Part shown: piece after piece, positions 24,375 through 26,520 of the stretch
Numbering within the stretch: position 1 is the first letter of the stretch
How the letters are laid out: each line of letters starts with the position of its first letter
Source of the DNA: Gemmatimonadales bacterium
GTDB lineage: Bacteria; Gemmatimonadota; Gemmatimonadetes; Palauibacterales; Palauibacteraceae
Direction of reading: 5' to 3'
Length of the DNA: 50,934 nt
Assembly (NCBI GenBank): GCA_009838765.1
Contig: VXQX01000093.1
Coordinates: 1 to 50,934 of the forward strand
Notes under the pieces: generated by a model
Database searches by the model: none
What the model was told of the DNA's origin: nothing
What the model saw: only the letters and a program-made list of their open reading frames with translations
Program-made: the position numbers and the translations under genes

Positions 24375-25199
24375 TCAGTCCCCCGGCGGCCTGGAGCCGA
24401 CGAAGTCCTCGCCTCCGTCCACCCGGATCGTGTTTCCCGTCATCCACCCCGTTTCCGGCGCGGCGAGCGCGACCATGCAGCGCGCCACGTCCTCCGGCGT
24501 TCCGAGTCGCCCGTGGGGGTTCTGGGCCGCGGCTTCGGCGATCATGTGTTCGGCGCCGGGGATCTTGCGGAGCGCGGGCGTATCCGTCACGCCGGCCCGG
24601 ATCGAGTTGACGGCAATGCTCTTCGTCGCGAGTTCGAGCGCGAGTTGGCGGCAGTGCGATTCGAGCGCGGCCTTGGCCGCGGAGACGGCGCCGTAGGAAG
24701 GAATCACGCGGTCGCCGCCGGAGGAGGTCATGGCGAAGATCCGGCCGCCTTCGCCCATCAGGTCGCGCTCGAGGAGCCCCTGGGTCCAGTAGACCAGCGT
24801 ATGAGCCATGACGTCCAGCGTCATGTTCATCTGCTCGGGGCTCATCCCGGGAGCGCCGTCGGGCACGAAGGGACGCAGTGTTCCGAAGGCCAGGGAGTGC
24901 ATCAGCACGCGGACGGAACCGGCCCCGGCGCCTTCCGCGATTTCGTCCAGCACCCTGTCCCGCTTCTTCGCGGATGCCGCGTTCACGTTGAAGAACATCG
25001 CACGCCGTCCGCGCGACTCGATCAGCGCCCGAATCTCTCCCACGTGCGCGAGCCCCGCCCTCCGGTCCAGGTGTACCCCGTAGATGTCGTAGCCGGCTTC
25101 GGCGAACGCCAGCGCGGCCGCTTCGCCAAAGCCGCTCGAGGCTCCGAGAATCAACGCGCCGGGCGCAGAATCCGTCACTCGTACGTCTCCGTTCGTCAT
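24375..25199 (-). CDS. SDR-family enoyl-ACP reductase, FabL/FabI-like
   Basis: A 274-residue short-chain dehydrogenase. The nucleotide-binding motif is GASSGFGEA. The active site is Y-x6-K (SYGAVSAAKAAL), the spacing typical of enoyl-ACP reductases (FabI, FabL), not the Y-x3-K of ordinary SDRs. The segment VNSIRAGVTDTPAL resembles FabL. The predicted role is NADPH- or NADH-dependent reduction of enoyl-ACP in fatty-acid synthesis. The ATG is at 25199, and a small membrane-protein gene follows. Assignment to FabL rather than another SDR is probable, not certain. Confidence 0.75.
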   Translation of the reverse strand: MTNGDVRVTDSAPGALILGASSGFGEAAALAFAEAGYDIYGVHLDRRAGLAHVGEIRALIESRGRRAMFFNVNAASAKKRDRVLDEIAEGAGAGSVRVLMHSLAFGTLRPFVPDGAPGMSPEQMNMTLDVMAHTLVYWTQGLLERDLMGEGGRIFAMTSSGGDRVIPSYGAVSAAKAALESHCRQLALELATKSIAVNSIRAGVTDTPALRKIPGAEHMIAEAAAQNPHGRLGTPEDVARCMVALAAPETGWMTGNTIRVDGGEDFVGSRPPGD

Positions 25200-25530
25200 C
25201 CGTTAAGGGCCATCCCGCGTCTCGGTCACGCCGCGGGAGTCGGAGCGCACAGCATAGCCGTCCGCACCCCGGGTCGCACGGTCCCGCGCCCTCCAGCCGC
25301 GAGCGCGAAAACCCGGCGTCGTCGCCGCTCGAACGCCGGCGCAGTGGGGCCCGCCACGGCTTCCGGATCCCCAACGGCGACGCATCCGGCGAGCGGGCCG
25401 CGTATCGGCGGCAATCCATATTTTTTGAAAAAAATCATGCGCGCGCCGATCTTTTCGGGTCGCCGTCACAGCGCGTTCATCGCCGCATGTAACATGCATG
25501 AACGCCGCACGCGAGCGCCCCTGCCATGCC

Positions 25531-25578
25531 GTGGATTAGCGGCACAATCCACACGTGATCGAGAGTTTTGGACGATCA
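25531..25578. promoter_or_regulatory. Two adjacent inverted repeats, possible operators
   Basis: GTGGATT (25531-25537) and AATCCAC (25546-25552) are perfect arms around 8 nt. TGATCG (25556-25561) and CGATCA (25573-25578) are perfect arms around 11 nt. Two such sites side by side in an AT-rich intergenic stretch fit repressor operators or small hairpins. The adjacent gene product looks like a ribbon-helix-helix protein, so autoregulation is one possibility. Confidence 0.35.
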
Positions 25579-25657
25579 TTCAACAGTCACGCAACATTCT
25601 ATTGTACAGCGTTTTACGATCCCATAACACAATCCGTCGATCCCTGAGCGAACGGGC

Positions 25658-25737
25658 GGACCGCTTGCAGGGCCGGGAACGTCGATCCTATCCTCAAAGC
25701 GCGACGGGAAACGCACGGCCCCTGATTGCCGCGGACC
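25658..25737 (+). ncRNA. Candidate structured RNA or leader element
   Basis: Three nested helices can be drawn by hand. GGACCGC (25658-25664) pairs with GCGGACC (25731-25737) with one A-A mismatch. CAGGGCCG (25668-25675) pairs with CGGCCCCTG (25716-25724) with one bulged C. CGTCG (25680-25684) pairs with CGACG (25702-25706) around a 17-nt loop. Purine-rich internal loops (GGAA and GGAAACGCA) separate the last two. It lies 65 nt upstream of the small gene at 25802. It matches no riboswitch class I can recognise; GC-rich sequence can fold this way by chance. Confidence 0.3.
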
Positions 25738-25801
25738 TCCGGCGTCCGTTCGGATAAAGAGAGCGAAACCCTCGAATTTTCTTGCGAGTGTGCCCCTGAC
25801 A

Positions 25802-25984
25802 ATGATGGCATCATCCGACTGTAGCCTCGTCAACGTCGTCGTGGATCTCCCCAAGGAGCTTGCCGCGGATGTGGAGGCCGTGCGCCAGCGAGATCCCGAG
25901 TTCCTCGAGCGTGCCATACAGTACGTCCTGGCCCGCCGCATCATCTTCGAAGAACTCAAGACCCCCGCCTCGAGACACCGCTGA
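25802..25984 (+). CDS. Small ribbon-helix-helix-like protein
   Basis: A 60-residue protein from ATG 25802 (a second ATG follows at once; a GTG lies at 25790). The order is a short beta strand (VNVVVDLP), a helix (ELAADVEAVRQ) and a second helix (PEFLERAIQYVLARRIIFEEL). This fits the Arc/MetJ-type ribbon-helix-helix DNA-binding fold by pattern only. No clear Shine-Dalgarno is seen. It follows the long non-coding stretch with inverted repeats. It could equally be a small protein of unknown role. Confidence 0.5.
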   Translation: MMASSDCSLVNVVVDLPKELAADVEAVRQRDPEFLERAIQYVLARRIIFEELKTPASRHR

Positions 25985-26118: not shown

Positions 26119-26520
26119 TTGGCCAGCGATTGCGAGCCGAGTATAGCCGTGTCCTCCGATACGGAGCGTCCAGCGCCCGGTCGGGATGCCGAGAGGGGAT
26201 CGGAGTCCGACGAAGGCGTACTGCGAGCAAAATACGCCGACTACTGCTCGGCTCAACTCACCGAAGTATTCCTCTCCCTGTCCGAAGAGCGCATCTACGA
26301 GATCGTGGAAGAGGAAGCCCGCGCGCAGGCGTTCGGCCAGGAGCGCCTGGGGTTCCAGACGATGGTCCGACTCGCGACCAAGCGACTGCGGGAGAGCGTG
26401 CCGCTGCCCGATTTCGAGACGTGGCGCCGCGACTACGAAGCTGCTCCCGAGGAGTATGAAGCCTACCTGATGGGCCTGTGGCGGCAGCGTTCGGAGGAAG
26501 AGGCCCCCGAGCCCGATTGA
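26119..26520 (+). CDS. Helical protein of unknown function
   Basis: A 133-residue soluble protein. The start is a TTG preceded by a strong ribosome site (GGAGGTGAGG, ending a few bases upstream); a GTG at 26149 is an alternative. The first 30 residues are polar and probably disordered. The remainder is helical and highly charged (EERIYEIVEEEARAQAFGQ, FETWRRDYEAAPEEYEAYL). It is followed after 6 bp by another small gene and then a GTGA-coupled glycosyltransferase, so these form one unit. I recognise no family. The 134 bp before it hold nothing I can name. Confidence 0.6.
   Translation: MASDCEPSIAVSSDTERPAPGRDAERGSESDEGVLRAKYADYCSAQLTEVFLSLSEERIYEIVEEEARAQAFGQERLGFQTMVRLATKRLRESVPLPDFETWRRDYEAAPEEYEAYLMGLWRQRSEEEAPEPD

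Follow-up and report, generated by a model that had tools for sequence, protein, structure and literature searches.

A probable divergent promoter and putative operator region before a small ribbon-helix-helix-like gene in Candidatus Palauibacter

The gap between two divergent genes of Candidatus Palauibacter (Gemmatimonadota), at 25200-25801, probably functions as DNA, as a divergent promoter/operator region. A putative transcription factor common to the class would bind a palindromic operator in this gap, likely as an activator at the promoter of a ribbon-helix-helix-like (RHH) gene. The RHH gene and its partner gene would belong to a conserved regulon connected with the replication and segregation of the chromosome. 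The gap lies in a stretch of 50,934 nucleotides, here called the window, that forms contig 80 of a 3.6-Mb genome assembly, and the sample around the window comprises 198 genomes. Among named organisms, the closest to the window are Candidatus Palauibacter and other Gemmatimonadota. A preliminary description had taken the gap for an undescribed regulatory element of the RNA kind. A strongly conserved regulatory region is present before the tiny RHH-like gene, but it is not a structured or regulatory RNA. Gemmatimonadota is a widespread and mostly uncultured phylum, and to our knowledge hardly anything is known about its transcription control and cell cycle. A conserved operator that precedes parA, gyrA, dnaE, and a predicted, uncharacterised operon of two genes would be a concrete handle on regulation in this phylum. 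Among papers on Palauibacter and on Gemmatimonadota regulators, we found none that describes the motif, nor any earlier description of the operator and its regulon.

The gap separates a gene for an SDR-family oxidoreductase (24375-25199, minus strand) from the RHH-like gene (25802-25984, plus strand), which encodes 59-60 amino acids from the ATG at 25802 or 25805. No conserved long open reading frame is found between the two starts, so the gene-free stretch of about 600 bp noted earlier is borne out. The AT-rich core is also real, with a G+C content of 46% at 25550-25649 against 70% for the whole window. An upstream extension of the RHH reading frame was rejected, because a 1-nt indel near 25777 disrupts the frame in half of the genus. 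The SDR protein resembles the enoyl-ACP reductases FabL/FabI (Pfam PF13561, E 2.9e-47); its top NCBIfam match is FabL, with a score under the cut-off. SDR is the divergent neighbour of RHH in Palauibacter and in several members of its family. RHH orthologues are found in 98 of the 198 genomes, with one match each. In nearly all loci examined, RHH is accompanied by a second gene (26119-26520, plus strand) encoding a 133-aa all-helical protein with the motif AKYxDYCSA. A scan of genome contigs detected 108 relatives of this partner, and the titles listed were essentially all from Gemmatimonadota. The partner family thus seems restricted to this phylum, and no relatives belonging to a known family were found.

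A sigma70-type promoter would drive the RHH-like gene and probably the next gene too. Its predicted elements, the -35 TTGCAG (25665-25670) and the -10 TATCCT (25689-25694), lie on the plus strand with an 18-bp spacer and are invariant in 12 genomes. Nearly all RHH orthologues have TTGC at the corresponding -35 place, and TTGC-N16..18-TAnnnT is seen about 120-175 bp upstream of almost every RHH start. The sister family carries a perfect TTGCG(T/C)-N17-TATAAT. We infer that transcription starts near 25701, about 7 nt past the -10 element, which would leave a 5' untranslated leader of about 100 nt (25701-25801, plus strand) with approximately 92-97% identity per 20-bp block. A second promoter on the other strand would drive the SDR gene. 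It is likely formed by GTGCGA (-35, 25279-25274) and TATGCT (-10, 25256-25251) with a 17-bp spacer, spanning 25251-25279. In 12 Palauibacter genomes, the block 25244-25283 hardly varies, unlike its flanks. The -35 element of the SDR promoter has the same TTGC-like flavour as that of the RHH promoter.

Throughout the class, a palindrome upstream of the RHH promoter forms the putative operator, with the class form TAAGTCGTTGTnnnACAACGACTTA and the genus form TAAC-N17-GTTA. A symmetric weight matrix was built from 74 of 92 distinct upstream regions; the window was left out and close relatives were included. By simple consensus matching, 62 of the 92 regions exceed the 99% shuffle level, and the best matrix match keeps its place in weak cases too. 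The window copy, CAACATTCTATTGTACAGCGTTTTA at 25592-25616, is degenerate. The inferred RHH start site would lie about 98 bp downstream of it. The copy's score of 8.4 is the best in the 50.9-kb window (the next is 5.8), and it occupies the same position as in relatives, with a gap of 48 bp to the -35 element. In the stronger cases, this gap measures 28-30 bp (12 loci), 37-41 bp (60 loci), 48 bp (5 loci, mainly Palauibacter), and 57 bp (1 locus); the classes are about 10 bp apart and rest on few independent spacing changes. The Palauibacter operator is decayed: its score of 8.4 compares with approximately 20-35 in most relatives and narrowly misses the 99% shuffle level of 8.8, which makes binding in this species uncertain. 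The genus-specific operator pattern, searched for in the window genome, showed no excess over the control. A dif site, with its 11-6-11 layout, was considered and discarded, since neither the sequence nor the occurrence at multiple sites fits. We regard the palindrome as a protein-binding DNA operator, judging from its sequence, position, and recurrence. The putative binding protein could be fished with one oligonucleotide carrying the operator TAAGTCGTTGTAAGACAACGACTTA, and the regulon could be tested in the few species in culture.

The palindrome is not confined to RHH loci. A pattern search finds it in 132 of the 198 genomes, and in most multi-site genomes the number of sites is above the reversed-pattern control, in many genomes by a wide margin. 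Complete site lists were obtained for 36 genomes, and the fetched sites are mostly intergenic. The genes behind them, named by sequence inspection and not by family search, are parA, parB, gyrA, gyrB, dnaE, fliA, rod/flagellar genes, MotA-like genes, type IV pilins, and M23 peptidases. Because the fetched sites had been selected by the motif, orthologues of individual genes were tested. For parA, a site above the 99% background was found in 13 of 30 orthologues, always at -27 to -38; a few of them had already come up at the discovery step. For gyrA the number is 17 of 30, mostly at -141 to -161 from the start of the aligned protein, and for dnaE 12 of 30, mostly at -88 to -93. The SDR control gene gave 0 of 30. 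The positives are mostly in families f5, f7, and f10. Several unrelated genes thus share the site at rates above background, as they would in a regulon. The window genome itself has a clear site (score 17.9) about 1.15 kb from the parA start. This Palauibacter site (L381 149-173; L369-L377) overlaps the end of a pyrF-like gene and lies about 180 bp before a formamidopyrimidine-glycosylase-like gene. In several relatives (L313, L325, L327, L330, and L332), a parS-like TTTCACGTGAAA is seen about 100 bp before parA.

Since the operator precedes parA, gyrA, dnaE, and others in relatives, the RHH pair would be part of a conserved regulon for replication and segregation. A broader version of this proposal is put forward tentatively. 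A class- or phylum-wide master regulator might read TAAGTCGTTGTnnnACAACGACTTA and coordinate replication (gyrA, gyrB, dnaE), segregation (parA, parB), motility and pili, and wall hydrolases. In one half of the class, the RHH pair would then be the target of this regulator that is retained most widely, and the pair might itself be a novel effector of the cell cycle. Such a regulator would be unrelated to CtrA and GcrA but analogous to them: in relatives, a single family of sites precedes genes for replication and segregation, flagella, pili, and murein hydrolases. The alphaproteobacterial systems differ in that CtrA recognises direct TTAA repeats and GcrA depends on GAnTC methylation. They also belong to another phylum, and cell-cycle timing of the operator's targets is putative.

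The RHH-like protein resembles the Arc/CopG/MetJ repressors in its size and in its predicted strand-helix-helix layout, but it has no significant match in Pfam, NCBIfam, or PDB sequences. The partner likewise belongs to no Pfam or NCBIfam family. Only one of 38 RHH family members matches Pfam Arc, with an E value of 0.12. PDB fold searches with both small proteins gave no significant match; for RHH, the search ran on a monomer model and is uninformative. This model predicts helices at 17-29 and 31-52 and no strand. The RHH assignment is based on a sequence pattern of an alternating strand, LP, and two helices. The strand of the Arc repressor reads Q-x-N-x-R. The predicted DNA-facing residues are Q-N-R in sister family f6 and N-V-D in the window protein (residues 10-14), with QNR, EVN, NVN, and NVD occurring in different families. 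Since these residues differ between families, it is not certain that the window protein binds DNA, and N-V-D suggests changed or lost binding.

These observations bear on which protein reads the operator and with what effect. Small RHH proteins often bind palindromes beside their own promoter. The RHH-like protein could likewise bind the palindrome and autoregulate in an Arc/CopG-like repressor circuit, and the Q-x-N-x-R strand of family f6 is in keeping with this. We consider such a circuit unlikely. Families f5, f7, and f10 have the operator at parA, gyrA, and dnaE, and in them a search with the RHH profile, which recovers 3 of 3 positive controls, matched nothing in 29 of 29 genomes. Moreover, family f2 keeps the operator even though the strand residues vary. 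Because the operator is present in lineages without detectable RHH, RHH is probably the target of the operator's regulator and not its binder. This regulator might be a repressor that keeps the RHH pair and the replication genes off, a reading to which we give a minor but real chance. The parA palindrome stops a few bases short of the start codon, where a blocking repressor would be placed, and repression fits better than activation there. At RHH, however, the operator is well upstream of the core promoter and its preferred distances come in steps of about 10 bp. Stepped upstream distances of this kind are what an activator such as CRP would show in class I promoters, where CRP is centred at -61.5, -71.5, -82.5, or -92.5. 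Steps of about one helical turn suggest an activator that touches RNA polymerase from one face, although the independent shifts are few. Activation is the most likely mode at the RHH promoter, with repression possible, especially at parA. The likeness to CRP class I promoters lies in a palindromic site upstream of a sigma70-type promoter with tolerated distances about one helical turn apart. The differences are an unrelated operator sequence, a longer palindrome of 25 bp, and an activator whose role here is putative.

Two further readings were weighed. According to one, the region is an ordinary divergent intergenic region whose conservation reflects the low divergence of the genus. The 12 related species are 79-90% identical, and the SDR and RHH promoters alone would account for two of the conserved blocks. 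This reading is very improbable, since the segment 25300-25359 between the promoters, inside the same gap, is variable (about 42%), and the promoter and operator reappear in families whose gaps otherwise show no visible likeness. The operator position is also more conserved than in shuffled upstream sequence, which holds for the relatives and less clearly for the window species. According to the other, a cis-acting structured RNA such as a riboswitch, thermometer, or leader attenuator precedes the RHH gene. The leader is conserved about as much as coding sequence and holds a small invariant CTCG...CGAG hairpin. Nevertheless, RNA structure in the leader is unsupported, with 0 compensatory changes in 21 pairs and a folding energy of z +0.28 against shuffles. 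Rfam, at gathering and permissive thresholds, gave nothing above threshold in the region and only a sub-threshold match with E=1.1. The cis-acting RNA is very improbable.

The structural elements on which the regulatory RNA had been based can all be drawn: two adjacent perfect inverted repeats (25531-25552 and 25556-25578), the repeated octamer CACAATCC (25543 and 25628), the 13-bp palindrome GCATG-TAA-CATGC at 25485, and a three-helix fold (25658-25737). The inverted repeats and repeated octamers are no more frequent than expected by chance. The region has 5 perfect inverted repeats (arms of at least 6, gap 3-12) against 3.1 in dinucleotide shuffles, 22% of which equal that count, and 9 repeated octamers against 7.7, equalled by 36% of shuffles. 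The 80-nt fold has a z score of -0.29, with 79 of 200 shuffles equally stable, and the double hairpin has a z score of -1.74. Among 12 genomes of the genus, several species have disrupted left arms in both inverted repeats and a disrupted 25485 palindrome, and the right arms of the two repeats are invariant or nearly so. Pairs of the two hairpins are lost on the left arm without a compensating change on the right, and 0 compensatory changes were found. The three-helix fold has 1 double change in 25 pairs, which is equalled by 138 of 500 shuffles. Covarying pairs are thus no more numerous than in shuffles, an outcome that the preliminary description had named as refuting it. In addition, the fold covers the -35, the -10, and the start of the class-wide promoter. 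A transcript from the RHH promoter would start in the middle of the fold and so could not contain it. The RNA reading is largely refuted for 25658-25737, and the conserved parts behave as protein-binding DNA. Hairpin-looking parts of a promoter region can thus mimic a regulatory RNA. A 6S-like RNA from the long imperfect hairpin at 25640-25760 was also rejected (z +0.29, overlapping the promoter).

Several other blocks of the gap are conserved. The A/T-tract block ATATTTTTTGAAAAAAATCATGCGCG (25416-25446) is conserved in 12 genomes, and a recognisable version is also seen in the low-GC relative G013. The block CGTTCATCnCCGCATGTAAC (25473-25492) is conserved, and the palindrome inside it is not. 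The invariant CACAATCCACAC (25543-25554) is the right arm of the first inverted repeat, and other genera of the family share its core AATCCAC(A/G) upstream of RHH. The conserved GTTTTgGACGATCAT block (25565-25579) is the right part of the second inverted repeat and has the counterpart GTTTTCGACATT in sister genera. Reading AATCCACA as a DnaA box (TTATCCACA) was rejected by inspection, because the family copies have AATCC instead of TATCC and dnaA did not turn up among the neighbouring genes searched. In the sister family (L063, L065, L066, L069, and L071), an extra inverted repeat around TTCGAACG..CGTTCGA is located just upstream of the -35 element and may be a second, lineage-specific operator. 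In many f6-type loci (L141-L179), GGAACAnnTGGWTT lies about 25 bp before the operator and GAGGttGCtaGCgCCTCC directly at the predicted transcript start, where a small hairpin is possible.
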